From: a virus
Length of the DNA: 64,000 nucleotides
IMG/VR virus record: IMGVR_UViG_3300045999_011354
Span: 1 to 64,000 of that record
Reading direction: 5' to 3' (one strand)
This document shows, in pieces, positions 23,624 through 53,084 of the stretch. Position numbers and translations under genes: made by a program. The notes under the pieces are model-generated. The model was not told the DNA's origin, searched no databases, and saw only the letters and a list, made by a program, of their open reading frames with translations. The first letter of the stretch is position 1. Each line of letters begins with the position of its first letter.

Positions 23624-24514
23624 TCAGCAGGTTCTAAGCTCTTTTCTTACTTTTAGCAAAAGCGCACATCTGTTAAGCCCATTCTGTTCTATCTTCTGCA
23701 ATCTTCCACGCGACAACCCAGTCGCCTCGCATATATCCTTCCAGGGCGTTGGTGGATCTTTTGCGCGTTCAAGTACAACCATTTTTGTCATCTCATCTAA
23801 ATAGCTTTCTATCGCCGCGTACGCATCTTCAATATTTGCGCGATTTTCTGCGTCTTCAATTGTATTTGAGTTTTTCTCATCCGCAATAATTTCAATCAAA
23901 AACGAACTATCCTCTGATTCATTCGCCTTTCTGTCGAGACTTGTTAGTGCGCGTGGCGCGTTGGTTGCAATTTGTATTTCATCTGGTGTTAGATTTGAGT
24001 GCTCAGACAACTCTTCAAGTGTCGGCTCGCGTCCAAATTGCTTGCTAAATTCTTCAACTGTTTTCCTTATTTTGAATGTTGAATCATGTATTCCGATCGG
24101 GAGGCGAATTGTTAGATCAATGCACTGCATGGATCTTTGTATCGCCTGCCTGATCCACCAGTAAGCATAAGTGCTCATCGCGTATCCACGAGTCGGATCA
24201 AATTTTTCAACAGCTCGCGCTAGTCCGACATTACCTTCTTGCACGAGATCCATAAGATCAAGCGTCGTGCAACGATTTGTGTATTTTCTAGCAATATTAA
24301 CGACTAATCTTAAGTTGCACTTAATAAATTTTTCTCTCGCCCTTTTTCCGATTCTTGCAATTTTTTTCTCTTCTTCTGTGTATGTTGATTCGTCTTTGTC
24401 GCGTATCAGCATCCATGCCTGCACCTGCGTGCCAAGCATCACCTCCTGCGCTTTCGTGAGCAGGGGATAGCGTCCTATCTCATTGAGGTAGGTCTGTGTT
24501 GCATCACGTGTCAT
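23624..24514 (-). CDS. Phage-encoded RpoD-like sigma factor (group 2 type)
   Basis: 296 residues from ATG 24514. A sigma-70 region 1.2 motif (TYLNEIGRYPLLT) is followed by region 2 with DLVQEGNVGLARAVEKFDP and STYAYWWIRQAIQRSM (residues 89-129), close to the -10-binding helix of cyanobacterial primary sigma factors. Region 3 and a diverged region 4 (SRGRLQKIEQNGLNR) follow. It would direct host RNA polymerase, probably to late phage genes. The start overlaps the end of a small upstream gene by 11 bases, so translation may be coupled. Confidence 0.9.
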   Translation of the reverse strand: MTRDATQTYLNEIGRYPLLTKAQEVMLGTQVQAWMLIRDKDESTYTEEEKKIARIGKRAREKFIKCNLRLVVNIARKYTNRCTTLDLMDLVQEGNVGLARAVEKFDPTRGYAMSTYAYWWIRQAIQRSMQCIDLTIRLPIGIHDSTFKIRKTVEEFSKQFGREPTLEELSEHSNLTPDEIQIATNAPRALTSLDRKANESEDSSFLIEIIADEKNSNTIEDAENRANIEDAYAAIESYLDEMTKMVVLERAKDPPTPWKDICEATGLSRGRLQKIEQNGLNRCALLLKVRKELRTC

Positions 24515-24674
24515 CGTCGTTTGAAGTGCCCTGTGAGACTTGCAGGCAGTGCAGTTTCCATTGCGCTTGCCATTCCTGTGCATGATCCCACACCATCCCG
24601 ATTCCGTAAACACGCCATTTCCAATTGTTTTCTTTGGATGGCGCTTCGAGATAAGGCTTGTTACCGTCAGTCAT
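24504..24674 (-). CDS. Small protein coupled to the sigma factor gene
   Basis: A 56-residue frame (MTDGNKPYLEAPSKENNWKW..., ending VSQGTSNDDDT), Trp-rich and acidic at the end. Its stop lies inside the sigma factor gene. It reads a different frame from a possible N-terminal sigma extension and gives the more protein-like sequence, so it also fixes the sigma start at 24514. No family recognised. A sigma-appropriating or anti-sigma role is only a guess from the overlap. Confidence 0.55.
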   Translation of the reverse strand: MTDGNKPYLEAPSKENNWKWRVYGIGMVWDHAQEWQAQWKLHCLQVSQGTSNDDDT

Positions 24675-26634: not shown

Positions 26635-26773
26635 CCGGGCTTAGCAGAACTGCCTGACCGTAATAAGGCGCCAGCCAAGATTTCATCAAAAGATCGTTGG
26701 CCTCATACTTTGAACGCGCCCAGCAAACATGATAAATGTTTAAAACTGGGAAATGAAAAAAATAGCGTCTCAT
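26621..26773 (-). CDS. Hypothetical small protein (50 aa)
   Basis: MRRYFFHFPVLNIYHVCWAR followed by SKYEANDLLMKSWLAPYYGQ and SPDDRR. The start overlaps the MazG stop (ATGA). Aromatic-rich N-terminus; no membrane segment long enough for certainty. Function unknown. It is the first of four nested tiny genes between mazG and thyX. Confidence 0.55.
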   Translation of the reverse strand: MRRYFFHFPVLNIYHVCWARSKYEANDLLMKSWLAPYYGQAVLLSPDDRR

Positions 26774-27153
26774 TGCACAAGGTCAAGCAGGTTTGGCTTT
26801 TGATAGCTCGGCCCTTTCATTACTTTTCCCGCCTCGTTTCTAATTGGTTTGCCAGAGTCATCCAGCTTGCTCATGTTGCTATCAAAAACGCGTTGCATCG
26901 CCTCGTCAAGATCCCAGCCCATATTCTCTGCTGCTTGATAGCAGACAAAAACCAAATCGCTCAACTCTTTCAATAAGTCGGCGTGAGTGGAAATATCGCT
27001 TCCCTTGAAGCCTTCAAAAGCTTCAATGACTTCAGTGTATTCTTCAATGATCAATTTAATTTGAAGATTGTACTGAAGACTTCCTCGTTGATTGTCGCTT
27101 TTGACTTCAAATGCTTTTCGCCACTGACGAGCCTGTTCTTGCAGTTGTCCCAT
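26770..27153 (-). CDS. mazG: MazG-like nucleotide pyrophosphohydrolase
   Basis: 127 residues. The all-alpha NTP-PPase signature is visible: IIEEYTE (residues 35-41, metal-binding Glu residues), KELSDLV (62-68) with Asp66, and the downstream phrase NMSKL...GKVMKGPSYQKP typical of phage MazG proteins. Such enzymes hydrolyse NTPs or ppGpp-like alarmones and are frequent in cyanophages. It lies after a strong intrinsic terminator that separates it from the cyAbrB gene, so it may need its own promoter, which I do not see clearly. Confidence 0.88.
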   Translation of the reverse strand: MGQLQEQARQWRKAFEVKSDNQRGSLQYNLQIKLIIEEYTEVIEAFEGFKGSDISTHADLLKELSDLVFVCYQAAENMGWDLDEAMQRVFDSNMSKLDDSGKPIRNEAGKVMKGPSYQKPNLLDLVQ

Positions 27154-27162
27154 GTTGATAGA

Positions 27163-27190
27163 GAAAGAAAAAGCCCTGCCGAAGCAGGGC
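27163..27190 (-). terminator. Intrinsic terminator after cyAbrB
   Basis: On the minus strand a perfect GCCCTGC / GCAGGGC stem with TTCG loop is followed by TTTTTCTTTC. It lies 20 bases after the cyAbrB stop and just upstream of the mazG start. It would end transcripts of the regulator gene or reduce readthrough into mazG. Confidence 0.85.
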
Positions 27191-27209
27191 GTGAACAGTG
27201 ATGCGTTGA

Positions 27210-27752
27210 TCAGAGATCGAGATCGTCTTCTTCGACTTCAGCAGCAGCGTCAGCGTCAGTACAAGGGGTCAGGATGATCTTGCCTTCCTCTGCGCTCACC
27301 TGAACCTTGCTGCCAGGGGCAAAGCCGGCGATGGCGCTGTGGCGAGCACCCACGACGCAGTTGCCGGTCTTGCCCACGGTGACGATGGGAGCGCGGCCCT
27401 TGCGGGAGCTGTAAGCGCGACGAGCAGAGGGAATCACGATGCCAGTAGAGGCTTCGGTGATGGCCTTGAAGAACTCGTTCTTGTGAATGCGGGTCTGGGT
27501 TTCCCCAGTCTCCGCATCAGTGATCTTGGTGTAGTAACCGGCGCCAAAGGCCAGTTCATCACCAGCAACGCCTTGATTGGCTTGTACGTAGTCAAGCAGT
27601 TCTTGGCCTACCTTACGCTCGCCGCCAACTTTGACTTTGGTGGACTTGGTGGCTTGAGCAGCTTCGGGGGCGGCGGCTTCAACAGACATTTCAGAATCAG
27701 TTTCGATGGGATCAAGGACAGCAGTATCTGCGTCCCGTTTTTTGCGTGCCAT
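27210..27752 (-). CDS. cyAbrB-like transcription regulator
   Basis: 180 residues from ATG 27752. The segment KVGQELLDYVQANQ...ELAFGAGYYTK followed by KNEFFKAITEASTG resembles the N-terminal half of cyanobacterial AbrB proteins, and GRAPIVTVGKTGNCVVGARH-AIAGFAPGSKVQV is the C-terminal SpoVT/AbrB-like beta domain. Host cyAbrB proteins are about 130 residues and act as global repressors of nitrogen and carbon genes; this one has extra acidic/Ala-rich ends. It has a promoter-like site upstream and its own terminator, so it may be a single-gene transcript. It could re-set host or phage transcription. Confidence 0.82.
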   Translation of the reverse strand: MARKKRDADTAVLDPIETDSEMSVEAAAPEAAQATKSTKVKVGGERKVGQELLDYVQANQGVAGDELAFGAGYYTKITDAETGETQTRIHKNEFFKAITEASTGIVIPSARRAYSSRKGRAPIVTVGKTGNCVVGARHSAIAGFAPGSKVQVSAEEGKIILTPCTDADAAAEVEEDDLDL

Positions 27753-27777
27753 GACGGCGTGGGTGGTTGACTTATGC

Positions 27778-27806
27778 AAGTTACCACGTTGCGCGGCTTC
27801 TTGCAA
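27778..27806 (-). promoter_or_regulatory. Candidate promoter for cyAbrB
   Basis: Minus strand: TTGCAA, 17 bases, TAACTT, about 20 bases before the cyAbrB ATG. The match to the consensus is partial (3 of 6 at each box). The location between RusA and cyAbrB, with a terminator after cyAbrB, is what makes it credible. Confidence 0.35.
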
Positions 27807-27813: not shown

Positions 27814-28353
27814 TTACGGCTTGAGTGCAAGCATCATTGCCGTAGCGGCTTCTTGATCAAGGCGTGACACCTTGACGTGAACCCCAGGGCCGTCAGACGG
27901 ATCGCAAAACAGCTTCATGGAAGAAGCTGCAACGATCAAAGCGTCGTCATCATAACAGATTTTTGTCAACGCATCACCACACGCCCTGAGCAGCTTGTCT
28001 GCATCGCCCTTATTTGAATGAAACAAAGGGGCGCTGCGCTTAAGTGCGCCCTTACTGTCAAAATGAATCTTTGGGCGAGGCATGTAAAATAACAGTGACA
28101 ATACAAATAACCCTTTCGTCTCCCAATTTGCAGGGCGCATCAGTGTTGCCACGCGCCCCACGGAAGCCCTCCAGGCGTAGAGCCCCTTGGATTGCTCAGT
28201 CATGGCTACAGCAACGCGCTGACGGCCCTCTCTGTCGGTGTAGACGCGCCCAAAAGCATTCTTCGAGCCCTGTGTCTCGGGCTTGCCAGCGACAAAAAAC
28301 GAATAGGACTGAATTGAATACTGCTCAAGTGTTGTCAACAAGTTTGCCGTCAT
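27814..28353 (-). CDS. rusA: RusA-like Holliday junction resolvase
   Basis: 179 residues (ATG 28353; a TTG lies one codon earlier). The RusA pattern is clear: an FFVAGKPETQGSKNAF N-terminus, HFDSKGALKRSAPLFHSNKGD, then KGDADKLLRACGDALTKICYDDDALI containing the conserved Asp residues that bind metal. It would cut four-way junctions made during recombination-dependent replication, along with Erf and the RecB-like nuclease in the same operon. The start lies inside the end of the upstream gene. Confidence 0.9.
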   Translation of the reverse strand: MTANLLTTLEQYSIQSYSFFVAGKPETQGSKNAFGRVYTDREGRQRVAVAMTEQSKGLYAWRASVGRVATLMRPANWETKGLFVLSLLFYMPRPKIHFDSKGALKRSAPLFHSNKGDADKLLRACGDALTKICYDDDALIVAASSMKLFCDPSDGPGVHVKVSRLDQEAATAMMLALKP

Positions 28354-29062
28354 CAATCCCTTTGTCGCGCTTGTAGATTTCTATGAGCTTAGCGATCAAA
28401 ATACGTCGATTCAACCTGCTTAGCTTCACACTTAGCTTTTCCGCCAGCTCTTCTGTCTGCTTTGCTGTTGGGTTGTTGTAAAGCGAAAGAGGGCGAACTG
28501 TGCGTTTTCGCTCCCAAATCGTCAGATCCTCTGCGCAATCAAAAATGTCTTTGTATTTTTTCCCTGCGCCCACCTCCTGCAAGAGCTGTGGATATTGATT
28601 GTAAATTCTTTCGAGAATTTGCAATCTTCTGTATCTGTCTGGATTCTTTTTTCTGTATCGCTTTTGAATGTAATACTTGATGCGCATATATTCAAAGAAT
28701 TCTTGAGGGAAATCAAAACCCTCGTGTTGCTCGCCCAACCACTTTGCAAATCTCGATGCGCACTGTGACTGAGTTTTATCTTTGATTGCAGCTTTTGCGC
28801 AATTAGCAAGAAACGTTGCAAGTGTCGCTTTCTTGATTCCCAGTCCATGATGAAAGTTAAATATAAAATCTTTCACCCCGCCCATCTTTATTTCTCTGTT
28901 ATCAAACGTTCTATATCCAAGATAGAATTTATTATCAATAATCTTCCACATCGTAGTGAAAAATAATTCTCCGTCGCCCCCATTGATTACCGCGCCCAAA
29001 TGAAGACGCGCATCGGCAACAAGGCGTGCGCCGTAAAAAATATCACTGCGATCTTTTAACAT
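28325..29062 (-). CDS. Hypothetical protein, Lys/Arg-rich helical
   Basis: 245 residues with no recognised motif. The N-terminus is beta-like (IFYGARLVADARLHLGAVINGG), the rest is helical and basic (RFAKWLGEQHEGFDFPQEFFEYMRIKYYIQKRYRKKNP). Homing-endonuclease-like beta start (LAGLIDADG-type VINGGDGELF) is suggestive but the defining LAGLIDADG helix is not seen. It sits between RusA and a nucleotide kinase. I rate the LAGLIDADG idea as weak. Confidence 0.6.
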   Translation of the reverse strand: MLKDRSDIFYGARLVADARLHLGAVINGGDGELFFTTMWKIIDNKFYLGYRTFDNREIKMGGVKDFIFNFHHGLGIKKATLATFLANCAKAAIKDKTQSQCASRFAKWLGEQHEGFDFPQEFFEYMRIKYYIQKRYRKKNPDRYRRLQILERIYNQYPQLLQEVGAGKKYKDIFDCAEDLTIWERKRTVRPLSLYNNPTAKQTEELAEKLSVKLSRLNRRILIAKLIEIYKRDKGIDDGKLVDNT

Positions 29063-29884: not shown

Positions 29885-30241
29885 TCAGAACGGCATTTCG
29901 TCTTCTGCAGGGGCTTGAGAGCGAGATGGCATCTCTTGACCTTGACGCTCAGGGATCGTGAAGTCAGTTGCATCCATGTAGATAGCAACGTAGTCAGTGC
30001 CGTCTTTTTTCTTTTTGGGTGAGACGGTTTTCACGCTTCCAACAAGAGTCACCTGGCGCCCGTCTTCCATGAACTTAGTGACGGTTTCAATCTTTTTGCC
30101 GTAGAAAGTGGCGTTGACGAAGTGAGTCTGTTTTCCGTTGGTAGTTTTAGAGCGGATACTGACAACGGCAGTTTTGCCGTAGTCGCCATCTTTTACTTGA
30201 ACTTCGCCGGTCACATAACCGCTAGCAACAAGAGTGAGCAT
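29885..30241 (-). CDS. ssb: Single-stranded DNA-binding protein
   Basis: 118 residues forming an OB-fold pattern (VASGYVTGEVQVKDGDYGK, VNATFYGKKIETVTKFM, GRQVTLVGSV) and ending with the acidic tip DEMPF, like the DxxIPF tail that recruits SSB partners. It would coat ssDNA at phage forks. The stop of the upstream nuclease overlaps its start (TGATG), so the two are coupled. Confidence 0.85.
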   Translation of the reverse strand: MLTLVASGYVTGEVQVKDGDYGKTAVVSIRSKTTNGKQTHFVNATFYGKKIETVTKFMEDGRQVTLVGSVKTVSPKKKKDGTDYVAIYMDATDFTIPERQGQEMPSRSQAPAEDEMPF

Positions 30242-33355: not shown

Positions 33356-33557
33356 TTTCTCTGTGGTCGCTAACTGTTTTGCATTCTTTTAAGTCGATAA
33401 CGGTGACATAGCCTTCCCCGTGCTCTGTTTCCCAAGTACTCGGATGCGCCTTCGCTATAACTAGAGCGTCTTCAACCGTTTTACAGGTCTTGATTGGGTA
33501 AGAAGATACACCGCACTCGATGCAGCCAACCTGATAAACCAGAAAGCGTGCGGTCAT
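33348..33557 (-). CDS. Conserved small phage protein
   Basis: 69 residues: FLVYQVGCIECGVSSYPIKT, with a Cys pair, then TVEDALVIAKAHPS and EGYVTVIDL. The VGCIECGVS motif occurs in small phage proteins of cyanobacteria as I recall. Start overlaps the stop of the SPFH-like gene. Function unknown. Confidence 0.6.
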   Translation of the reverse strand: MTARFLVYQVGCIECGVSSYPIKTCKTVEDALVIAKAHPSTWETEHGEGYVTVIDLKECKTVSDHREND

Positions 33558-33949
33558 TTTTCAATACCAAGTGTCGGGACAGGAAGACCGCCTTCGGTTG
33601 GAACGTAGATTGTGCGATTTCCTTTTTCGCTACCTTCTTGCAAACCTACAATATAAAGATATTGCAAATATCGCGGATTATCTTTCAGTGAATCCCCAAT
33701 AATGCGATTAGCTTCTGCAACGCCTTTAGCGCGTTCAATTTCAGCATCTGCCTCAAGCGAGGCTGCATCTTTTTTCGCCTTTGCTTCAAGTACTCTTACC
33801 TGACGAGTGCTTTCTGCCTCCATCAATGAGGCCTTGCCAGCAAGGGTGCGGTTGTAAACACCTAATTGCGGAATGCCCCAAAGAAGAAGGGCAAGCACTG
33901 CAACGACTGGGGTGGCAAGAATAAATACAACGAGTGCGTCTTGTTTCAT
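33554..33949 (-). CDS. Truncated SPFH/prohibitin-like membrane protein
   Basis: 131 residues: a membrane helix at about residues 7-25, a charged Ala/Glu-rich coiled coil (39-85) and a C-terminal piece EANRIIGDSLKDNPRYLQYL then RTIYVPTEGG. The last part matches the end of prohibitin/stomatin proteins (SPFH family), which form rings in membranes; the globular SPFH domain itself is missing, so it may be a mini-scaffold. The helix-first order suggests membrane anchoring with a cytoplasmic coil. Confidence 0.65.
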   Translation of the reverse strand: MKQDALVVFILATPVVAVLALLLWGIPQLGVYNRTLAGKASLMEAESTRQVRVLEAKAKKDAASLEADAEIERAKGVAEANRIIGDSLKDNPRYLQYLYIVGLQEGSEKGNRTIYVPTEGGLPVPTLGIEK

Positions 33950-43705: not shown

Positions 43706-43734
43706 TTGACACCTTTTCTGTAAAATGCTATACT
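43706..43734 (+). promoter_or_regulatory. Early promoter P1
   Basis: TTGACA, 17-base spacer, TATACT, with AAATGC before the -10 region. Expected +1 near 43741; first gene ATG 43761. No strong hairpin at +1, unlike most later copies. Upstream GATGC fits the ATGCTTGACA form shared by all the early promoters. Confidence 0.75.
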
Positions 43735-43760
43735 ACCCTTGTCCTGTAAAACAAACAGAA

Positions 43761-44219
43761 ATGCAAATCCTCACGAGACAACAAGCCGTTAAGCGCAACT
43801 TGCGCAATTTAACACTGTGCGAGTGGATGTGTTATGAAGCAGAGAATGTTGTTAAACATAATAGCACGGACGTTTCTGTGTGGGATAGAAAACTGGTAAA
43901 TCGTTCACGACCTGGTGATGTTCGTCTTTGGTGGATTCACGAGTTTGGGTCTCAATTTCTACCAATGTATTGCAAACTTTATGAAAAAGAAAGAATGGAG
44001 GAAGGGGAATATGAGCTTACCGCAGTAGAGGTCAATTTAATGCGAATGTTCAAGCACGATAGACTTGGCGAGATTCAACGCAAAATTATCCTTGGAAGTT
44101 CTAAGTTTTTCTTTATCATAAAGGGTGATGGAGATTTTGATTACTGTGTAATACCGATCACCTTTGAGGAGGTCGTCGATTTGGTTTTCAATGGAAAAGC
44201 TAATCAATTTCTGAACTAA
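43761..44219 (+). CDS. Hypothetical early protein
   Basis: 152 residues from ATG 43761; an upstream in-frame ATG overlaps promoter P1 and is rejected. Mixed alpha/beta with LCEWMCYEAENVVKHN and FFFIIKGDGDFDYCVIPITFEEVVDL. No family recognised. It is the first gene of the P1 transcript. Confidence 0.65.
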   Translation: MQILTRQQAVKRNLRNLTLCEWMCYEAENVVKHNSTDVSVWDRKLVNRSRPGDVRLWWIHEFGSQFLPMYCKLYEKERMEEGEYELTAVEVNLMRMFKHDRLGEIQRKIILGSSKFFFIIKGDGDFDYCVIPITFEEVVDLVFNGKANQFLN

Positions 44220-44221
44220 TT

Positions 44222-44533
44222 ATGAAACTGCAGTCTGAATTGTATTTGCACGAGCTTAATGCTTTGATGCAGGGTTTATTTATGCAAATGGAGGATTGCG
44301 TCAAAGCACTAAAAAAAGAAAAAAGAAGGGCGCAGATTTCTGCATTTTTTGCGCCGTGGGTTAGTCGAGAGATTTACTCAGCACTTGCCTTCAAGGCTGA
44401 TGTAATCATGAAACACGTCGAGCTTCTTTCTGAGCTGCGAGAGAAAATTCTTGAAGCAGAGGGATTTGACGACGACATGCGTGCTGTCACATACAAAGAG
44501 ATTTGTGATAAAGCTCAAGAAATAAATACTTGA
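44222..44533 (+). CDS. Hypothetical helical early protein
   Basis: 103 residues, strongly helical (LYLHELNALMQGLFMQMEDCVKAL, KHVELLSELREKILEAEG). Two bases after the previous gene. Its stop runs into the -35 of promoter P2. Function unknown. Confidence 0.65.
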   Translation: MKLQSELYLHELNALMQGLFMQMEDCVKALKKEKRRAQISAFFAPWVSREIYSALAFKADVIMKHVELLSELREKILEAEGFDDDMRAVTYKEICDKAQEINT

Positions 44534-44588
44534 CAAGTAACGAGTAACGCGCTACAATACAAAGACCGCTCAACACAGAGTGGTCTTT
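44530..44588 (+). promoter_or_regulatory. Early promoter P2 plus 5' stem-loop
   Basis: TTGACA (44530-44535), 17-base spacer with GTAACGAGTAACG, TACAAT (44553-44558). A hairpin spans 44561-44588: 11 bp AAAGACCGCTC/GAGTGGTCTTT with one G-U and loop AACACA, followed by a T/C-rich tract. The stem begins at the expected +1 within a few bases. The T-rich run could also make it an attenuator. Next gene ATG 44607. Confidence 0.75.
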
Positions 44589-44606
44589 TTCTTTTTCAGT
44601 GGATTC

Positions 44607-44921
44607 ATGAAACTCAGACACATGCAAGACATTCAGCATTTATTGCTGTTTGTTGAGAATCACGATGGGCGCACGTTTAATCAGCTTTTGAAAGATTTGT
44701 GCGTGATTTATGCAGAATCTCAAGAGGGCGATTTTGATTACATGCCCAGCGCTGTTTCTCGCGCAACTACTTTCATTCATCTCTGGTACCCGTTGTTTTG
44801 GGCCAAATACTCAGAAGACAAGCATTTCGTTTTTGAGAAAAAGAATGAGATTATTTCATTTGTTGCCGTCGAGCTTGCTCAGTCTGCGCTCAATGAATTC
44901 AAGCTGGGTAATGTTTACTGA
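44607..44921 (+). CDS. Hypothetical early protein
   Basis: 104 residues from ATG 44607; earlier in-frame ATG 44580 falls in the hairpin. Helical with MQDIQHLLLFVENHDGRTFNQLL and aromatic LWYPLFWAKYSE. CTTTTTCAG precedes the start; no SD. Function unknown. Confidence 0.62.
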   Translation: MKLRHMQDIQHLLLFVENHDGRTFNQLLKDLCVIYAESQEGDFDYMPSAVSRATTFIHLWYPLFWAKYSEDKHFVFEKKNEIISFVAVELAQSALNEFKLGNVY

Positions 44922-44930
44922 GAATCAATC

Positions 44931-45335
44931 ATGGAAATGAACCCAACTCTAATTGCGCTCGCTGAAGTTGTTTTATACACCAATTCCGACGAATATGGTG
45001 ATCCACTTGACGAGAATTATTTAATCGCAAACTTTGAAGAAGAATCGCTCAAAAAGCTCTACACCGAGTATCAGCAGTTTATTTCAATCGTTGAAGAAAA
45101 GATCACTGCAGCAATTGGAGACAAGTGGAATTGCATTGATGATTTTTATGATGTTCAACAGCCCGCATTAAATCAAACTGAATATGACTATGTGCTAACT
45201 CGTAACAGACATGGCGCGGGATTTTGGGATGGTGATTGGAGTTCTGAGGTTTCACAAATTCTTACTGACGCCGCACAGTCTCAGCCTGAATTTACTGCTC
45301 TCATTGATGATGATGGGAAGATTTATTTAGCATGA
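44931..45335 (+). CDS. Hypothetical acidic protein
   Basis: 134 residues, acidic. The C-terminal region VLTRNRHGAGFWDGDWSSEVSQILTDAAQ is similar to a small phage protein family often listed as unknown. It could be an antirestriction-like or host-takeover mimic, a guess from its acidity and place. Overlaps the next gene by four bases. Confidence 0.6.
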   Translation: MEMNPTLIALAEVVLYTNSDEYGDPLDENYLIANFEEESLKKLYTEYQQFISIVEEKITAAIGDKWNCIDDFYDVQQPALNQTEYDYVLTRNRHGAGFWDGDWSSEVSQILTDAAQSQPEFTALIDDDGKIYLA

Positions 45336-45625
45336 AACAAGATGAAGTTTCTTTTTTGGGCATACCTTGCCCGCAGTGTGGCAGTACGAAAAGAAGGGTT
45401 GTTGAGTCGCGACCGCAAATTAATTTTGTTGCTCGCAGATGCGTGTGTCAAACTTGCTCGCATCGTTTTACAACGCATGAAAAACTAAAAGACCAAGATG
45501 TTCTGAGCCCTGACTTTTTATTTGCTGTGCTAAGAAGAATTTCTGCAGTTGAAAATGCAATTTCTACTTTGCGCCGATCCATTGAGACAGGGCTTCAGAA
45601 TTACAAATTTGATGACGACAAATAA
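45332..45625 (+). CDS. Ogr/NrdR-type zinc-ribbon protein
   Basis: 97 residues. CPQC...VESRPQINFVARRCVCQTCSHRFTTHE is a NrdR/Ogr-like zinc ribbon (C14, C17, C37, C42 region), related to the leftward protein at 31172. The rest is a helical tail. It might be a transcription activator, as Ogr is in P2, but is in the early region here. It ends just before promoter P3. Confidence 0.65.
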   Translation: MKQDEVSFLGIPCPQCGSTKRRVVESRPQINFVARRCVCQTCSHRFTTHEKLKDQDVLSPDFLFAVLRRISAVENAISTLRRSIETGLQNYKFDDDK

Positions 45626-45629
45626 ATGC

Positions 45630-45684
45630 TTGACAATGCGTCGAGCATGTAGTACGATGTAATCGTACAGCGCAAGAGCTGTAC
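45630..45684 (+). promoter_or_regulatory. Early promoter P3 plus 5' stem-loop and palindrome
   Basis: TTGACA (45630-45635), 17-base spacer, TACGAT (45653-45658). A 7-bp stem GTACAGC/GCTGTAC (45665-45671, 45678-45684) begins exactly at the expected +1. In addition GTACGAT GTA ATCGTAC (45652-45668) is a perfect palindrome over the -10, a possible operator. The -10 is weaker than in P6-P8. Confidence 0.7.
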
Positions 45685-45704
45685 TCTCTTTATCTTTCAG
45701 AAAC

Positions 45705-45908
45705 ATGACTCCAGATGATCATTTTATTTTTGCAGAAACCATGCGTCATTACGGTGGGTCTTTTTGCAAAAAGCTTGCAGATGCTTACTGCGCCGCTGAT
45801 CTTACAAACAAAGCAAAGATTTTGAATGCTTGGCCGGAACTTTACGAACAGTACGGCCCCGGTTCTCGATTTGCACAAGCTCGCATTGCTGAACTTCAAA
45901 ATGTCTGA
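45705..45908 (+). CDS. Hypothetical small protein
   Basis: 67 residues: HFIFAETMRHYGGSFCKKLADAYCAADLTNKAKI, ending QYGPGSRFAQARIAEL. A similar phrase (ETMRHYGGxFCxxLAxA) occurs in small Caudovirales proteins of unknown function as I recall. Starts after CTTTCAGAAAC; no SD. Overlaps the next start. Confidence 0.62.
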   Translation: MTPDDHFIFAETMRHYGGSFCKKLADAYCAADLTNKAKILNAWPELYEQYGPGSRFAQARIAELQNV

Positions 45909-46449
45909 TTTTATTTACGATCCTCGCCCGCTTGATCCACCAGATTACTACGATAAAGAAATGTCAAACACTGCTACTTGGATTGTTCAGCGCACTAAAG
46001 TTCGTTACAGCCAAGAAGAAAAAATCTTCAAGAAAAATGTTTCTCAAGAGCGAGGCGAAGGTGGCATGAAAGATGTTTTGCAGGTGATCGCACAAATTCA
46101 TGGGGGCGATTCCCCTGATGAATGTGAAATCTTTATTGATGCGACGCAGATTGTTTCAAAATCTGACGCTGCTCAACCTGTTTATTATCAGGTCAATTTT
46201 AGTCATGCGCACGATGTTCATTGGGTTCTGAAAGAAAAGACCGGCGCAACAGAAGAAGATACTGATCCAGAAGAATTGTTTGCACTCGCCGAATACATGA
46301 TTAACGAGGGCAGGGAGTTTTCTGTTGAGTTCGGAACTGTTGATCCAACACCGCAGTATCTTTATGACAATTCTGGTGGGGAAGCCCCTGTCACAATGCG
46401 AGAGATTTGGGATTCAGCTTTCAAACAAAAGCAAGAGTTGACAAAATGA
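45901..46449 (+). CDS. Hypothetical protein
   Basis: 182 residues from ATG 45901. Alpha/beta, acidic, with VLQVIAQIHGGDSPDECEIFID, QPVYYQVNFSHAHDVHWVLKEK and a C-terminal LYDNSGGEAPV. No catalytic motif recognised. The next start lies inside its last codons. Confidence 0.6.
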   Translation: MSDFIYDPRPLDPPDYYDKEMSNTATWIVQRTKVRYSQEEKIFKKNVSQERGEGGMKDVLQVIAQIHGGDSPDECEIFIDATQIVSKSDAAQPVYYQVNFSHAHDVHWVLKEKTGATEEDTDPEELFALAEYMINEGREFSVEFGTVDPTPQYLYDNSGGEAPVTMREIWDSAFKQKQELTK

Positions 46450-46769
46450 ACGCAATTACTTTTGAGCAACTGCTGGACAATTACTGCTCATGGAAAAATA
46501 GTGAGCGTGATGCGTCAAAGCTCGATCCTCTAGAATTGCTGTATTCATATTTATTTGAATCGGAATTCTTGATGGCAGCAATTCATTTGTTTCGCCTATG
46601 CCTGCAAGAGGAGGATTACGGAAAAGCGACCCCATTCGCTGACATGCAATCAAATTTCTTAAAATTTCTAACAGTTGAAGATCTTCTTGTTACTTGTGAG
46701 ATTGTTTCTCAACACAAAACTAAAGAATGCGAAATGCTCATTGAACAATTAAGAAATGAGTCTAAGTAA
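46446..46769 (+). CDS. Hypothetical helical protein
   Basis: 107 residues from ATG 46446. Helical (EQLLDNYCSWKN, LELLYSYLFESEFLMAAIHLFRLCLQEEDYG). Overlaps the previous and next genes by a few bases. Function unknown. Confidence 0.6.
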   Translation: MNAITFEQLLDNYCSWKNSERDASKLDPLELLYSYLFESEFLMAAIHLFRLCLQEEDYGKATPFADMQSNFLKFLTVEDLLVTCEIVSQHKTKECEMLIEQLRNESK

Positions 46770-46935
46770 AAAAGAAAAACTTGCGTTACTCAGCGCAATT
46801 TCTTTCATGCACAATTTTGGGGAGAACTTTGTTCCTCTTGTAAAAGACGGCGACAAAGAAGAAAATCAACGTGCTTGGAAAGAAGCTAAAGTGATCTACA
46901 AAGATTTGCACGCTCGCATCAAGAAAACATTATGA
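46756..46935 (+). CDS. Hypothetical small protein (59 aa)
   Basis: MSLSKKEKLALLSAISFMHNFG..., with KDGDKEENQRAWKEAKVIYKD and basic end RIKKTL. Overlaps both neighbours (ATGAAA of the next gene starts in its last codon). Too short for many gene callers. Function unknown. Confidence 0.6.
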   Translation: MSLSKKEKLALLSAISFMHNFGENFVPLVKDGDKEENQRAWKEAKVIYKDLHARIKKTL

Positions 46936-47555
46936 AAGTTCTTGTCGCCTGTGAATTTTCAGGAAGAGTGCGTGAAGCATTTGCAAAGCGAGGGCATTAT
47001 GCCGTTTCTTGCGATCTTCTCGAAACAGAACTTCCTACAACAGAAAATAGCAAACACTATCAAGGAGATGTACTAGAAATTCTTTCAGAGAACTGGGATC
47101 TTATTGTTGCTCACCCGCCATGTACTTATTTGGCGCAATCAGGCGTTCAGTGGCTGAAGAAAGTTCCTGGGCGATGGGATCAAATGCTTAACGCGATTGA
47201 TTTCTTTAATTTGTTTCTCGCGCACCCATGCCCAAGGATTTGCATTGAAAACCCAATCATGCACTCACATGCAAAACAGCGATTGATTAATCCAAATTAC
47301 TCACAAAAGATTCAACCGTATTTCTTTGGACACCCAGAGCGCAAGCAAACTTGTTTTTGGTTGAAGAATCTTCCCAAGCTTAAGGTGACAAATAATGTTG
47401 AAGAGCAGATTTTATTTCTGCATCCCTCGGAAACTGATCGGGTTCATTATGAACCGCCCGGCCCGGAAAGACAAAAAAATCGCAGCAGAACTTATTTGGG
47501 GGTGGCTGAGGCGATGGGTGAACAGTGGGGTGCTTTACTGCCGCTGAGCCTTTGA
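46932..47555 (+). CDS. Solitary DNA cytosine methyltransferase-like protein
   Basis: 207 residues. KVLVACEFSGRVREAFAKRGH resembles motif I of C5-cytosine methyltransferases, the SAM-binding loop. VAHPPCTYLAQSG (residues 59-71) is the PPC motif IV with catalytic Cys64. Target-recognition domains are short. No partner restriction enzyme is visible nearby, so it likely protects phage DNA from host restriction or regulates. Similar mini-methylases are common in phages. Confidence 0.78.
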   Translation: MKVLVACEFSGRVREAFAKRGHYAVSCDLLETELPTTENSKHYQGDVLEILSENWDLIVAHPPCTYLAQSGVQWLKKVPGRWDQMLNAIDFFNLFLAHPCPRICIENPIMHSHAKQRLINPNYSQKIQPYFFGHPERKQTCFWLKNLPKLKVTNNVEEQILFLHPSETDRVHYEPPGPERQKNRSRTYLGVAEAMGEQWGALLPLSL

Positions 47556-47581
47556 TTCCTGCGCCCGTAGCGGGATCATTT

Positions 47582-47611
47582 CCCCTCGGACGATTCATCC
47601 CACCCGAGGGG
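47582..47611 (+). other. GC-rich hairpin after the methyltransferase gene
   Basis: CCCCTCGG and CCGAGGGG form an 8-bp stem around a 13-base loop. There is no T tract. The rest of 47556-47674 contains no gene that I can see. Confidence 0.45.
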
Positions 47612-47674
47612 ATTTCTGAGGCTCACAAAGGATTCTGAGCGGGCTGAGAGACTATTCATTTTCTGCATAGTTTG

Positions 47675-47935
47675 ATGAGTTCAAAGAGTTTTTCATTGCG
47701 CACAGCAGACATTCTTGCGTCGCAGTATTTAACACAAAAGAAACATGCGAGAACAAGATATGTTTTGACGCAAGGAAATTTTGTTGCCTGCAGTCATTGT
47801 TGTCATATTTTTAGAGAAAGATTTGCATTACTTGCGCCCTGGATTATTAAAACAGACTGCGTGAATCAAAATGATAGATTTTTGAAGTGCGATGTTTGTG
47901 AAAGTAAAATTTTCACTAAAAACGTAGCTAGATAA
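47675..47935 (+). CDS. Small zinc-ribbon protein
   Basis: 86 residues from ATG 47675 (TTG 47672 is possible). Cys pairs CSHC and CDVC, about 34 residues apart, with His in between (CSHCCHIFRERFALLAPWI, then CDVCESKIF). Probably binds zinc and DNA. The stop lies before promoter P4. Confidence 0.6.
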   Translation: MSSKSFSLRTADILASQYLTQKKHARTRYVLTQGNFVACSHCCHIFRERFALLAPWIIKTDCVNQNDRFLKCDVCESKIFTKNVAR

Positions 47936-47939
47936 ATGC

Positions 47940-48002
47940 TTGACACGTAACGTCATACGTGCTATAATCTAGTCATACAGCAAAAGCAAAGTCTCTTGCT
48001 GT
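47940..48002 (+). promoter_or_regulatory. Early promoter P4 plus 5' stem-loop
   Basis: TTGACA (47940-47945), 17-base spacer containing GTAACGTCATACG, TATAAT (47963-47968) with extended TGC. A stem ACAGCAA/TTGCTGT spans 47977-48002, starting two bases after the expected +1 at 47975. Next gene ATG 48026 after TTTCAGAAC. Confidence 0.75.
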
Positions 48003-48025
48003 TGTCAATTTATTTATTTCAGAAC

Positions 48026-48304
48026 ATGTCAAAGTTTCGTGACTGGCAGAACTCTCGCAAAGAGGTTTCTATTGAAGAATTCAAAAAGATTGATTTTGAT
48101 GCTGTAGAGCTTTTTCAGCTTGAGCAGTCTCCGCCCGAAAAGATTTTTGTTTATCGTGGCGGGCATTGGATTATGCAAAACAATGACGGCGCAGGAAGTT
48201 ATTTCTGGTTGTTTATTGAGCGTGATGAGTATTGTGATCTCGATTTAGAAGTTTCAGAGATGCGCTTGTATCTTTGGGCGATTGATGAAAACTGCGAACT
48301 CTGA
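48026..48304 (+). CDS. Hypothetical protein
   Basis: 92 residues from ATG 48026: FRDWQNSRKEVSIEEFKKID, later EKIFVYRGGHWIMQNNDGAGS. A mixed alpha/beta fold. Starts after a TTTCAG leader. Function unknown. Confidence 0.62.
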   Translation: MSKFRDWQNSRKEVSIEEFKKIDFDAVELFQLEQSPPEKIFVYRGGHWIMQNNDGAGSYFWLFIERDEYCDLDLEVSEMRLYLWAIDENCEL

Positions 48305-48315
48305 TTTTTATTGCA

Positions 48316-48606
48316 ATGCTTAACAACGACAAACTTGCTTTCTTTCGTAGAGAGCTTACTTGCAAGCAAATCATTCTTGACTACGCCTTGCAAATTAACA
48401 AACGGCGCATCGAAAACATTGACAATTCAGTGATTGATTTGCCGTTGGAGGAGGATGCTATGGATCTGCACATGTATTTGTTTGGGAATGTCCCCGCAAA
48501 TACATTTCGTGAATATGTTAATTATGTTCACGAAAAAACTCAGCGACCAAATTGGCTGGCCGGGCTGCCCGGCGTTACTTATCAAGATGTTCAGATAAAT
48601 GCTTGA
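48316..48606 (+). CDS. Hypothetical helical protein
   Basis: 96 residues: MLNNDKLAFFRRELTCKQIILDYALQIN..., helical, then FGNVPANTFREYVNYVHEKTQRPNWL. The stop overlaps promoter P5's -35 region. Function unknown. Confidence 0.6.
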   Translation: MLNNDKLAFFRRELTCKQIILDYALQINKRRIENIDNSVIDLPLEEDAMDLHMYLFGNVPANTFREYVNYVHEKTQRPNWLAGLPGVTYQDVQINA

Positions 48607-48683
48607 CAAATAAGCCATTATCTGCTACAATAGCAACATGCGAGACGAAAAAAGAGATTAAAGATCTCAATTTTTTCTCGCAT
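48603..48683 (+). promoter_or_regulatory. Early promoter P5 plus 5' stem-loop
   Basis: TTGACA (48603-48608), 17-base spacer, TACAAT (48626-48631), extended TGC. ATGCGAGA (48638-48645) and TCTCGCAT (48676-48683) close a long imperfect hairpin, with inner AAAAAA/TTTTTT and GAGAT/ATCTC pairs. The stem starts exactly at the expected +1 (48638). Gene ATG at 48710. Confidence 0.78.
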
Positions 48684-48709
48684 TTCTGTTTCATTTCTTT
48701 TTCAAAAAC

Positions 48710-48895
48710 ATGACAAAAAAAGAAGCGATTGCAATTTTCAAGGATGAATGGAATTACTTTATTAAATTCCAGTCTCCAAACTATGCTGACGACATTTGCG
48801 CAAAGCGTCAAGCATTTGTGCAATTCATAGATCAGTTGCATCGTGATGGCGAGATTACTGATCGTCAGGCAAATTCCTGGGATAATCCATTTTGA
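48710..48895 (+). CDS. Hypothetical small protein
   Basis: 61 residues: KKEAIAIFKDEWNYFIKFQSPN..., DDICAKRQAFVQFIDQLHRDGEITDRQANSW. A pattern of this sort (REAFxxYIDxLxxDGxIxxxQxxxWxNPF) is common to many small phage proteins, function unknown to me. Short leader without SD. Confidence 0.65.
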   Translation: MTKKEAIAIFKDEWNYFIKFQSPNYADDICAKRQAFVQFIDQLHRDGEITDRQANSWDNPF

Positions 48896-48930
48896 TTTTT
48901 TAATTCAACACATACTTACATTTCAGAATC

Positions 48931-49188
48931 ATGCACGATCTTTTCAAAAGCAACCCAGTTGAATATGCCTGCGAATTAATTGACGAAGGGCGTACAAATT
49001 ACAATGAACTATTGATGGCTTGTCTTAAATGGATGAGTCATGATCAAATTCGCGACATGTTACATGATAATGAATTAGATCCTGATTCTTGTGATGCGTT
49101 CGATGAGGGTTATTGTACAGAAGAGATAAGCAATGAAGAAAAGTATGCGTGTGAGATGTACAACGATCGCTATGCTTATTACGATTGA
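48931..49188 (+). CDS. Hypothetical acidic protein
   Basis: 85 residues, acidic, with YACELIDEGRTNYNELLMACLKWMSHDQIRDMLHDNELDP. The CELIDEG...LLMACLKYMSHDDVRDML phrase is like small proteins found in other cyanophages. Ends YAYYD. Function unknown. Confidence 0.62.
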   Translation: MHDLFKSNPVEYACELIDEGRTNYNELLMACLKWMSHDQIRDMLHDNELDPDSCDAFDEGYCTEEISNEEKYACEMYNDRYAYYD

Positions 49189-49190
49189 TT

Positions 49191-49388
49191 ATGAATGCAC
49201 AACAAATTCGCGATTTAGTTGATTCAGGCAAGATTGTTTATTGCGACTCTGAATCATATATTGTAATCAAAGATTCTATAGGACAGTATTTAATTAAATG
49301 TTTGGACAATCATTATTACATTGGACTAACGCATCGAGATAATGTAACACTGAACGGAACTCATTTCTTTGTAAAAGACGACAAATAA
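49191..49388 (+). CDS. Hypothetical small protein
   Basis: 65 residues from ATG 49191, three bases after the upstream stop. Beta-rich (IVYCDSESYIVIKDSIGQYLIKC, YYIGLTHRDN). Tail ends KDDK, which overlaps the AAATGC upstream element of promoter P6. Function unknown. Confidence 0.6.
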   Translation: MNAQQIRDLVDSGKIVYCDSESYIVIKDSIGQYLIKCLDNHYYIGLTHRDNVTLNGTHFFVKDDK

Positions 49389-49392
49389 ATGC

Positions 49393-49462
49393 TTGACACG
49401 TAGCATGTAACGTGCTATAATACACACATGCGACGAGAGAAGTAATCATTCTTTCGTCGCAT
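49393..49462 (+). promoter_or_regulatory. Early promoter P6 plus 5' stem-loop
   Basis: TTGACA (49393-49398), 17-base spacer, TATAAT (49416-49421), extended TGC. ATGCGACGA (49428-49436) pairs with TCGTCGCAT (49454-49462); the stem continues to 14 bp with loop GTAATCA. It begins exactly at the expected +1. The next gene starts at 49490 after TTCTCAGGAAATCTC. Confidence 0.8.
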
Positions 49463-49489
49463 TTGTTTCTTTCATTCTCAGGAAATCTC

Positions 49490-49777
49490 ATGTCCAGCAA
49501 AAATTTAGATCCGATTCTTGTTATTTCTGACACGAACGGTATTTACATCCCTCAGATGTATTGCAATCACATTGATGAAAAGATTGCTGAAGAAATGCAC
49601 ATCTCTTTTGAGGATGTGAAAATTTGTCAATCCGGCCCAGATCATGAATGGTACTGGGAGTCTTGGGACATTATTTGTCAGAACGCTGAATGGATTTCTG
49701 ACGGCGTTAAGTGGTATTTGCATCAAGACGGCGACTTGTGGGAAGTGCCCGAAGGCTTTTCATTTGATGAGGATTGA
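49490..49777 (+). CDS. Hypothetical protein
   Basis: 95 residues from ATG 49490 (an in-frame ATG-like start further up lies in the hairpin). Beta-rich, acidic: PILVISDTNGIYIPQMYCNHIDE, VKICQSGPDHEWYWESWDII, YLHQDGDLWEVPEGF. Reminiscent of small phage proteins of unknown function. Close to the next gene. Confidence 0.62.
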   Translation: MSSKNLDPILVISDTNGIYIPQMYCNHIDEKIAEEMHISFEDVKICQSGPDHEWYWESWDIICQNAEWISDGVKWYLHQDGDLWEVPEGFSFDED

Positions 49778-49780
49778 TTC

Positions 49781-50020
49781 ATGAACATCAAACAGATTTA
49801 CGAATTTAAACTTTTTGATCGTCGCAGCGAACAACTTGTCATTGTTCATTTTCGTCGCATTGATGATTATTTTCTCATTGAGAAAAGAACGCAAGACGGG
49901 AAAGTTATCGACTCGGAAAAAATTGAAGAGCAATTTGCAAAAATTGTTCTTGAGCAAGCGTTGATTTCTTTGCCCAAGTCTGACTTGGAAATCACAAAAT
50001 TCTCTGAGGTTAAATCATGA
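49781..50020 (+). CDS. Hypothetical protein
   Basis: 79 residues: NIKQIYEFKLFDRRSEQLVIVHFRRIDDYFLIEKRTQDGK. Beta hairpin type at the N-terminus, helix later. Overlaps the next gene by four bases. Function unknown. Confidence 0.6.
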   Translation: MNIKQIYEFKLFDRRSEQLVIVHFRRIDDYFLIEKRTQDGKVIDSEKIEEQFAKIVLEQALISLPKSDLEITKFSEVKS

Positions 50021-50523
50021 CAGCACAGCCTAGCTATTTTTGCATTGCAAATCTTGGTGACAGTGATCCTTTTTTGTACGGGGGCGCATTTGTTTGCATT
50101 GATCGCCGAGGGATTTATGATCCCATACTTTTGATTTATGATGAAGATTTTCGTGGACGTGGTGAAGTTGCATTAGAACGCTGTCACAAGATTCTGTCGG
50201 ACTCGGGCGATTTCCTGGGTGTCGGGACAAATAGATTTCACCCTAAATACAAAGAATGGTTTAGCGATGATCTGGAGACTGTCACTAATTTTACTGGATG
50301 GGAGTTTGATGAATTTGTAAATTTACTGACATCGCAAGATGCTGTTAAATGCGCAAGTGCCTATTTGACGCTTATTAGTTACTACGGTGTTCGTGAATTT
50401 GATCACGATCCATTTATTTACGAAACAGAAGAAGATGCTGCAAAGTTTTGCGAAAAAATGCTTGCACAGATAGAGGAATCAAAACTCTGGCATGACGGTT
50501 ATTTTGCAAAAGACGATAAATAA
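50017..50523 (+). CDS. Hypothetical protein
   Basis: 168 residues, acidic alpha/beta (YFCIANLGDSDPFLYGGAFVCIDRRG, YDEDFRGRGEVALERCHKI). Ends AKDDK; the stop lies inside the promoter P7 upstream element. No family recognised. Confidence 0.6.
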   Translation: MTAQPSYFCIANLGDSDPFLYGGAFVCIDRRGIYDPILLIYDEDFRGRGEVALERCHKILSDSGDFLGVGTNRFHPKYKEWFSDDLETVTNFTGWEFDEFVNLLTSQDAVKCASAYLTLISYYGVREFDHDPFIYETEEDAAKFCEKMLAQIEESKLWHDGYFAKDDK

Positions 50524-50527
50524 ATGC

Positions 50528-50597
50528 TTGACACGTAGTGCGTTACATGCTATAATGTAGTCATACGGGCGAGAGAGTAATTCTTTTTCGCCTGTAT
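50528..50597 (+). promoter_or_regulatory. Early promoter P7 plus 5' stem-loop
   Basis: TTGACA (50528-50533), 17-base spacer, TATAAT (50551-50556), TGC before it. ATACGGGCGA (50563-50572) and TCGCCTGTAT (50588-50597) pair over 10 bp with one G-U; inner pairs extend it to about 15 bp. It begins exactly at the expected +1. Gene ATG 50623. Confidence 0.8.
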
Positions 50598-50622
50598 TTG
50601 TTTTTCTCATCAAAAAAATCTC

Positions 50623-51054
50623 ATGCTAAAAACTGTTTTCTTTGCAGGAGAAAAATTCTCTTGCACGCTTGAAATTTCAATCAAAGAGAAAAAGTCTTTC
50701 AAGGCTCTGAGCATTGTTGGCACTTATTTCACGGGTAAAAAACTTCTCAAATCAGAGAAGAATTTGCTTGGCTGGGGGCAGATTCATGATGAAGTCAAGG
50801 AAATTATTCCCACGCGACTTTATGAAATTTGGAAGCGTTGGCACCTGAATGACATGCGTGCTGGAACATTTGTGCAAGAAGAAATCTTGCGACAAGCAAA
50901 AGCTTCAGGCGTTGAGTTTGATAATTTCTACATCGACGCATGTGAGTATTTGCAGCGCTTTGATGCGTTAGTCGATGAAGGATATAAATATGGAAGCAAG
51001 TGGCTGAAAGAAGAATTGCCTCAGGAAGTTATTGATTACGTTTGCGCTCTTTGA
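50623..51054 (+). CDS. Hypothetical protein
   Basis: 143 residues: VFFAGEKFSCTLEISIKEKKSF, then a helical C-terminal half (RLYEIWKRWHLNDMRAGTFVQEEILRQAKA). The middle contains YFTGKKLLKSEKNLLGWGQIHDEV, reminiscent of a widespread phage protein of unknown function. Preceded by TTCTCATC leader without SD. Confidence 0.62.
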   Translation: MLKTVFFAGEKFSCTLEISIKEKKSFKALSIVGTYFTGKKLLKSEKNLLGWGQIHDEVKEIIPTRLYEIWKRWHLNDMRAGTFVQEEILRQAKASGVEFDNFYIDACEYLQRFDALVDEGYKYGSKWLKEELPQEVIDYVCAL

Positions 51055-51083
51055 TTTCATTTGCTCACTCGCTTAATTTCAAA

Positions 51084-51371
51084 ATGACTGAACTTTGTAA
51101 ATCCGCGCCATTTGAGTGCTACCTCTACATTTACGAATGCAGTTCAGGGGAAGAGTTTTTCAAAGAAATCAAGGATGATGACATTCTTGATTTAGAAACT
51201 CAAGTGATTCACTGGGTGAAAGATTATTTCGATGGCGAGGTGGAAGTTGATCTCCCTTTAATTCATGGATTAGAGGGAGAGTATTTTGCAAGTATTAAAA
51301 CTGATTTTAATCCGCCCGGCTCAGTTATTTCCTGGGAATCTGCAGGATTTTACATCAAACACATTGATTGA
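51084..51371 (+). CDS. Hypothetical acidic protein
   Basis: 95 residues from ATG 51084; an earlier in-frame start would overlap the previous gene. Alpha/beta, acidic: CYLYIYECSSGEEFFKEIKDDDILDLETQVIHWVKDYF. Function unknown. Confidence 0.6.
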   Translation: MTELCKSAPFECYLYIYECSSGEEFFKEIKDDDILDLETQVIHWVKDYFDGEVEVDLPLIHGLEGEYFASIKTDFNPPGSVISWESAGFYIKHID

Positions 51372-51374
51372 ATC

Positions 51375-51575
51375 ATGAAAGACTTGTTTTCTGATCACAA
51401 AGAGTTCATTCACGCAGTACTTGTTATTACTGCGGGCACAGCGATTGGATTTATTGGTGCTAGATTTATTAACGAAAAGCTGAGCGATCACGCTTTTCAT
51501 AATTGTCCCGCTGAGCGTCTTGTTTTTATGCGAGACGCATTTGTTGGGGGTAAGTACATTTGCTTGAAAAAATGA
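51375..51575 (+). CDS. Small membrane protein
   Basis: 66 residues. One membrane helix at about residues 12-32 (HAVLVITAGTAIGFIGARFI), basic after it, and a short C-terminal tail with Cys. The stop overlaps the next start (ATGA). Membrane-located early protein, unknown role. Confidence 0.6.
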   Translation: MKDLFSDHKEFIHAVLVITAGTAIGFIGARFINEKLSDHAFHNCPAERLVFMRDAFVGGKYICLKK

Positions 51576-51871
51576 CTGACAGCTTAAACAAATTTGTTGA
51601 CGACGAGGTAATTCGTATTGTCAAAACATCAACAACTTACAAGCACATTTGTAAATCAAGGGATCATGATCAATTTATGGATGTAACTATTAAGCAGTGG
51701 GATTCTGTCACAGGTAACATTTTATGTTATCTGAAAAGCAAATACAGAAAGCAGTTTGTTTTCACGCAGGCTAAGTTATTTGTAATTGCGAAACTCGCAG
51801 CAGTTGAGTTACTGAAGCGAGAAGATAAATTCAAAGATACGACAGATAAATGCTTGACAAGTAACGTGTAA
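51572..51871 (+). CDS. Hypothetical protein
   Basis: 99 residues from ATG 51572. Basic middle (YKHICKSRDHDQFMDVTIKQWDS...YLKSKYRKQFVFTQAKLF) and helical end. The final codons (KCLTSNV) are read from the -35 area of promoter P8, so the real stop may be fortuitous. Unknown function. Confidence 0.58.
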   Translation: MTDSLNKFVDDEVIRIVKTSTTYKHICKSRDHDQFMDVTIKQWDSVTGNILCYLKSKYRKQFVFTQAKLFVIAKLAAVELLKREDKFKDTTDKCLTSNV

Positions 51872-51925
51872 CCTGCTATAATAGCAACATGCGAGAGACG
51901 AGAAGTAGCTTTCTTTCTCTCGCAT
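51854..51925 (+). promoter_or_regulatory. Early promoter P8 plus 5' stem-loop
   Basis: TTGACA (51854-51859), 17-base spacer containing GTAACGTGTAACC, TATAAT (51877-51882), TGC before it. ATGCGAGAGA (51889-51898) and TCTCTCGCAT (51916-51925) form a perfect 10-bp stem that begins exactly at the expected +1. Gene ATG 51958. Confidence 0.8.
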
Positions 51926-51957
51926 TTATTTCTTGTTCATTTCTTTTTCACGGACAA

Positions 51958-52167
51958 ATGCAAATTTCCAGCGGCGACAAAATTAATTACGAAATGATTC
52001 GTGAAACACTCGGAACAGTTGTTTATGATGGCTGTTACGAATATGTTGTGAGTGACTATTCGTTTAAATACAACACAATGGAATTATGGTGCAAGACTCG
52101 TCAAATGTTTATTAAGGTTACACCTAAAACATTTGATTCGATGATGTGCATTTCTGGCGCAATCTGA
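51958..52167 (+). CDS. Hypothetical small protein
   Basis: 69 residues from ATG 51958; the upstream in-frame ATG is the first base of the hairpin and gives a Phe/Ser-rich unnatural N-terminus. YEMIRETLGTVVYDGCYEYVVSDYSFKYN. Alpha/beta. Function unknown. Confidence 0.6.
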   Translation: MQISSGDKINYEMIRETLGTVVYDGCYEYVVSDYSFKYNTMELWCKTRQMFIKVTPKTFDSMMCISGAI

Positions 52168-52212
52168 TTGCTCACTCGCATTTTTGTTCATTCTTTTTTC
52201 TTTTTCAGTCAA

Positions 52213-52593: not shown

Positions 52594-52662
52594 ATTTACT
52601 TTTAATCACTTCGCCAATTCATTTTCAATTCTCACTAGAAAATTCATTCGCTTAATTCAATC

Positions 52663-53045: not shown

Positions 53046-53084
53046 TGCGCCCTTGGGCTGATCTCTGCGTCCGAAAGATTCATG

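Follow-up and report, generated by a model that had tools for sequence, protein, structure and literature searches.

Background

Why does a phage carry a gene for a relative of the cyanobacterial regulator cyAbrB, and can it express this gene on its own? The question is raised by abrB, a gene for a 180-residue protein in a stretch of 64,000 nucleotides (here called the window) from an IMG/VR virus record of 65.3 kb, of which it is the greater part. To our knowledge, cyAbrB has been reported in all known cyanobacterial genomes. It is in part essential. One defining feature of cyAbrB is that its C-terminus carries a DNA-binding domain of the AbrB superfamily (PMC4284466). Host cyAbrBs have been described as abundant proteins of small size that bind DNA in part non-specifically or with low specificity (PMC9241938; PMC11368403). 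Host cyAbrB2 was recently proposed to occupy AT-rich DNA as a nucleoid protein similar to H-NS, and the regions it binds are reported to exclude SigA and SigE (PMC11368403). In the papers searched (most subscription journals and all preprints lay outside the coverage) a phage cyAbrB was not described.

In this study, we show that the encoded protein is homologous to cyAbrB and shares its domain layout, and that the gene has a conserved promoter and terminator, a conserved position among its neighbours, a history of purifying selection and a cyanophage-like setting.

Results

The virus and its likely host

Late genes of the window include those for terminase, portal, tail fibres and endolysin. 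A minus-strand block at 23-41 kb encodes DnaB, Erf, SSB, dNMP kinase, RusA, MazG, ThyX, dCTP deaminase and a sigma-70 factor. Within this block abrB (27210..27752, minus strand; ATG at 27752, TGA stop at 27210-27212) lies downstream of a RusA-type Holliday junction endonuclease gene (27814..28356, minus strand; PF05866, E 1.8e-8) and upstream of a gene for a MazG-like nucleotide pyrophosphohydrolase (26770..27153, minus strand), assigned by PF01503/PF03819 and synteny. The same block is closed by a phage group-2-type sigma-70 factor (23624..24613, minus strand; PF04542, E 1.7e-19), which shares 45-46% identity with the group-2 sigma factors of the cyanosiphoviruses S-CBS1 and S-CBS3. The best matches of the portal are cyanophages, and among 14 control genomes the cyAbrB family is present only in Synechococcus elongatus. 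Because of this sigma factor, the portal matches and the restriction of cyAbrB to one of the controls, a cyanobacterial host is likely, and the sequences point to one that is probably Synechococcus/Cyanobium-like.

The early region of the phage has a GC content of 37-41%, while most of the remaining window lies at 44-52%. This AT-rich region holds seven near-identical predicted strong promoters (43706-53747, plus strand) with TTGACA, a 17-nt spacer and TGYTAYAMT; in several cases a stem-loop comes immediately after the promoter, where the transcript is predicted to begin.

Homology to cyAbrB

Similarity to cyAbrB in a profile search had been set beforehand as the test of the gene's identity, and hhalign returned it at about 96% probability (E about 2e-9). 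The profile of the phage family matched a cyAbrB1-type protein (95.8%, E 7e-9) and the picocyanobacterial cyAbrB profile (96.3%, E 1.8e-9), each time over both halves. With an alignment of 115-123 columns, both cyAbrB parts named by the initial annotation are indeed present. Host cyAbrB genes were recovered from cyanobacterial genomes by a whole-genome search with the phage profile, at E values down to 1.9e-10; a pattern scan with the same profile found no host genome locus. A second genome scan used an approximate picocyanobacterial cyAbrB as bait, and the sequences analysed all came from the returned loci.

Residues 45-104 align with host cyAbrB and constitute the cyAbrB-specific N-terminal domain. 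The C-terminal half aligns with the host profile, and alignment and model suggest that it is the AbrB-superfamily DNA-binding domain. Weak matches to PF14250 were found for 23 of 24 phage family members. The window protein alone scores 18.2 bits, under the curated cut-off of 25 bits, for which reason we call it cyAbrB-like: by sequence it is a divergent relative, not a full cyAbrB by Pfam score. The PHROG match was insignificant (E 0.03), and neither single-sequence searches of PDB, NCBIfam and plasmids nor a profile search against PDB sequences gave a useful match. Identity to picocyanobacterial cyAbrB is just about 25%. In trees the phage family forms a single clade on a long branch, outside the picocyanobacterial and the host-like viral cyAbrBs; because of this long branch, its placement against any given host clade is not fixed.

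Layout of the protein and comparison with host cyAbrB

The conserved basic start MARKK is followed by a low-complexity tail that is predicted to be disordered (residues 1-44, 27621..27752; pLDDT below 50 for residues 6-35). Then come the cyAbrB N-terminal domain with helix-helix-strand-strand-helix order (residues 45-104, 27441..27620), a basic linker with an AbrB-type beta-beta-alpha-beta-beta domain, the putative DNA-binding part (residues 105-163, 27264..27440), and an acidic tail (residues 164-180, 27213..27263), all on the minus strand. In the family alignment this tail has a linker of variable length and a near-invariant D/E-D-L-D-L end. R112, R117, R120, R137 and H138 are invariant across the phage family.

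AlphaFold predicts the N-domain with confidence (pLDDT about 84-89), the C-domain with moderate confidence (66-77) and the ends as disordered. The order of helices and strands in the N-domain is identical in a model of host cyAbrB. AbrB structures ranked first in a fold search of the PDB, where the best match, 1yfb (AbrB N-domain), was not significant (E 0.5). In a viral library the top matches were the S39-C11 AbrB (E 4.7e-7) and the 52-mer of P-TIM68, and the host model retrieved the same two.

Phage and host proteins (cyAbrB1 and cyAbrB2, the Sll0359/Sll0822 family, PF14250) share the order of an N-terminal domain and a C-terminal AbrB-type domain, the GYYT, GR and GN motifs and an acidic C-terminal end; a short basic start is common to the phage family (MARKK) and cyAbrB1-type proteins (MSKKKK). 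The phage family differs by an additional N-terminal extension of 45-50 residues, by the near-invariant tip, by a linker to the DNA-binding domain that is more basic, and by the loss of the host segment PGDEFEI, which is missing in all phage members and replaced by PGSKVQV and variants. Its members are also larger than the usual host protein, as first annotated (176-185 residues against mostly about 120-145). Their pI is 4.7-5.1, whereas that of the compared hosts (cyAbrB1, cyAbrB2 and picocyanobacterial types) is mostly 6-10; the phage protein is acidic overall, the Synechocystis cyAbrB1 and cyAbrB2 are basic. The net charge within the family is +4 to +5 for the linker, +1 to +3 for the C-domain and -7 to -9 for the acidic tail. 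The extra acidic ends that had been proposed are thus found at the C-terminus; the N-terminal tail is just mildly acidic (0 to -4) with a basic start, and host proteins also end in a short acidic stretch. The C-terminal domain is, in the trees, strongly diverged from every host protein. Replacement of host cyAbrB, or competition with it, was proposed at first and is a hypothesis; such divergence would fit new targets at least as well as a simple substitution for the host protein.

Relatives, gene order and selection

There are 45 relatives in IMG/VR, 56-98% identical to the window protein. They have the MARKK start in common (MASKK in one), as well as the N-domain, the basic linker, the C-domain and the D/E-D-L-D-L tip on variable linkers. 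The ATG and the MARKK start are kept in nearly all complete relatives, in agreement with the annotated 180-residue frame. Ratios of dN/dS against relatives are 0.09-0.34, and the coding sequences indicate that the abrB family is under purifying selection.

The order RusA-abrB-MazG is common to the relatives, with RusA always upstream of abrB. It belongs to a longer, near-fixed order (PDDEXK-SSB-dNMP kinase-orf245-RusA-abrB-MazG), apart from the insertion of a protease-like gene. This small, protease/lipoprotein-like gene (phrog_11227; 33554-33949 in the window) is mobile and lies directly behind the abrB terminator in L019, L021-L023, L025, L027 and L028. Since it is inserted straight behind the terminator in several relatives, promoter, gene and terminator behave as a module.

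Promoter, terminator and transcription unit

The promoter-like element (27778..27806, minus strand) consists of TTGCAA (27806-27801), a 17-nt spacer and an extended -10, TGG TAACTT (27786-27778). It was absent from the list of a generic sigma-70 scan, yet it is conserved: a strict TTGCAA-N13-15-TGnTAnnnT lies directly upstream of the abrB ATG in 43 of the 44 relatives with upstream sequence, and the exception, L029, differs by one base in the TG. The strict element was found nowhere else in 366 kb of DNA of the relatives, nor elsewhere in the window. Dereplication left 18 sequences, all of which keep TTGCAA and the -10 positions TA and T unchanged; their spacer varies freely in sequence but shows no indels.

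The intrinsic terminator (27163..27190, minus strand) is composed of the hairpin GCCCTGC-TTCG-GCAGGGC (27190-27173) and the T-run TTTTTCTTTC. Its description as a strong TTCG terminator held: it was found by the scan, folds at z = -3.3 and is kept in 41/41 sequences. In all of these a GC hairpin followed by a T-tract begins 20-25 nt past the stop, with compensatory paired changes (e.g. T-A to C-G). The terminator ends about 20 nt short of the MazG start (27153-27173), within the MazG leader; the MazG-ThyX-DCD-sigma block would therefore need read-through, antitermination or an unseen promoter. No terminator was found between RusA and abrB. The claim of a stand-alone transcription unit thus stands as far as the conserved promoter and the covarying terminator are concerned. 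Since no stop signal separates RusA from abrB, and the leader of MazG contains the abrB terminator, a separate abrB transcript is what the sequence suggests, and read-through from RusA is possible.

Other viral cyAbrBs

Phage-encoded cyAbrB recurs across several phage lineages, and the window gene is no lone case. With a host cyAbrB query, host-like cyAbrB was found in at least 158 viral contigs. It adjoins terminase and/or portal, recognised by sequence motif, in 53 of 80 fetched contigs; PHROGs confirmed both in L246 and terminase in L283. Other host-like viral genes have RecT, psbD, endolysin or dCTP deaminase in their vicinity. Contigs L239-L296 provide compact host-like versions of 105-115 residues between large terminase and portal in cyanophage contigs (e.g. 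L246:2998-3327), and in L258 and L259 psbD and host-like cyAbrB are about 0.6 kb or less apart. These proteins are phage-encoded cyAbrBs like the window protein. They differ from it in length (most 105-145 residues), in mostly having no long acidic tail, in their 56-79% identity to picocyanobacterial cyAbrB and in their location, which is the structural module or the vicinity of RecT or psbD.

A further type was found in the uncultured phage MedDCM-OCT-S39-C11 and 10 related contigs (11 in total). It resembles the window protein in its full cyAbrB layout, its GQEL(L/V)DYV start and the structural match given above, and differs in its 118 residues, the absence of an acidic tail, a position adjoining structural genes in an autographivirus and about 30% identity. 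The cyAbrB N-domain alone is encoded by P-TIM68 (L153:1504-1662, AIR93619.1), whose 52-residue protein lies 0.7 A from the host N-domain model at 52% identity; in B23 gp246 (L154:1465-1893) the N-domain is fused to an unrelated C-terminus. Both cyanomyophage N-domain proteins are candidate cyAbrB poisons. On the host side, each genome of the freshwater picocyanobacteria (Vulcanococcus, Cyanobium, Synechococcus; L128-L142) has 4-8 cyAbrB matches, whereas most other cyanobacteria in which cyAbrB is matched have about two.

Discussion

We think it rather probable that the family is a divergent phage lineage of cyAbrB, a DNA-binding transcription regulator of the nucleoid-associated type with its own promoter and hairpin, active in the replication phase. 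This reading draws on the profile homology, the AbrB-type topology with disordered tails, the invariant arginine and histidine residues, the positive linker and C-domain, the position in a replication and nucleotide block beside a group-2 sigma factor, and the AT-rich early region. Against it count the moderate pLDDT of the C-domain (66-77), the non-significant PDB matches, the acidic overall charge, the loss of PGDEFEI and a host that is itself inferred. From these data we infer DNA binding, dimerisation, timing, targets and a role of the tail. The gene would be expressed in the replication phase or mid-infection from its own conserved promoter, with transcription ended by its own hairpin. 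The protein most likely binds DNA as a dimer, using the AbrB-type domain of its C-terminal half together with the basic linker; this DNA-binding half seems retuned relative to host cyAbrB. It most likely regulates phage and/or host promoters while the phage sigma factor shifts transcription, and the acidic tip at its C-terminus probably serves for protein contact or autoinhibition.

Two other explanations appear possible, if doubtful, to a similar degree. As a counter-silencer or dominant-negative protein, the phage product would form mixed complexes with host cyAbrB through the N-domain and so lift the silencing of AT-rich phage DNA. Other phage proteins lift H-NS or MvaT silencing by such means. 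Poisoning of host cyAbrB through the shared N-domain is, as a hypothesis, the most interesting rival. Cyanophages carry cyAbrB repeatedly, P-TIM68 keeps the N-domain alone, which could work by protein contact only, and AT-rich DNA is coated by host cyAbrB2 (PMC11368403). However, any role of the N-domain in dimerisation is putative, the charged DNA-binding half, needless for a pure poison, is retained, and identity to picocyanobacterial cyAbrB is only about 25%.

The second explanation, which we hold equally doubtful, is a repressor that acts site-specifically on a small number of phage promoters and also controls its own, with conserved TTGCA repeats (in the -35 and just past the -10) as operator. 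Two copies of TTGCA lie 27 bp apart within the conserved element upstream of abrB, this element is found at abrB only, and its TTGCAA is invariant in the 18 dereplicated sequences. The promoter alone, however, accounts for most of this conservation, the palindromes CTTGCAAG and ACTTGCANAAGT show no enrichment elsewhere in the window, and host cyAbrBs are reported low-specificity binders (PMC9241938).

A replication accessory protein, with the acidic tip acting like the tail of a single-strand binding protein, is improbable. The gene does lie between RusA and MazG, near the SSB, Erf and DnaB genes, and the conserved acidic-hydrophobic tip sits on a variable linker. But the phage has an SSB gene of its own (29885-30241) with a canonical tail ending in DEMPF, and the predicted fold is AbrB-like, not an OB fold. 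An SSB-like role proper was set aside, as this tailed SSB gene is separate and the abrB product gave no SSB domain match. Very improbable is an antitoxin or SymE-like toxin of the AbrB/MazE superfamily: the SymE model is matched by 24/24 members (best E 1.2e-4) and MazE by 9, but the SymE match covers 22 residues only (142-163 of the window protein; 19.7 bits against a cut-off of 29, PF08845), the N-terminal half is specific to cyAbrB, and the genes around abrB encode replication enzymes, with no toxin gene seen nearby.

Beyond the preferred reading of abrB as a DNA-binding regulator, we put forward tentatively that cyanophages acquired cyAbrB on repeated occasions, either complete or reduced to the N-domain, as a general way to commandeer or relieve silencing based on cyAbrB. 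The window family would be the most specialised case, its DNA-binding half rebuilt and a contact tail added. Because many related viruses carry other cyAbrB copies, interference with the host cyAbrB system may be a common viral tactic. The tailed, the compact and the N-domain-only phage versions offer material for testing cyAbrB as a defence against foreign DNA, and the answers of phages to it.

A review of phage-encoded xenogeneic silencers covers EPV1, mycobacteriophages and CGP3, and mentions neither cyanobacteria nor AbrB (PMC7074111). The phage cyAbrBs extend to cyanobacteria a set of phage-encoded silencer homologs that is known for hosts with H-NS and Lsr2. Like H-NS of EPV1, Lsr2 of mycobacteriophages and CgpS of CGP3, they are relatives of a host nucleoid protein carried by a virus, whereas the folds of those homologs are unrelated to that of cyAbrB.
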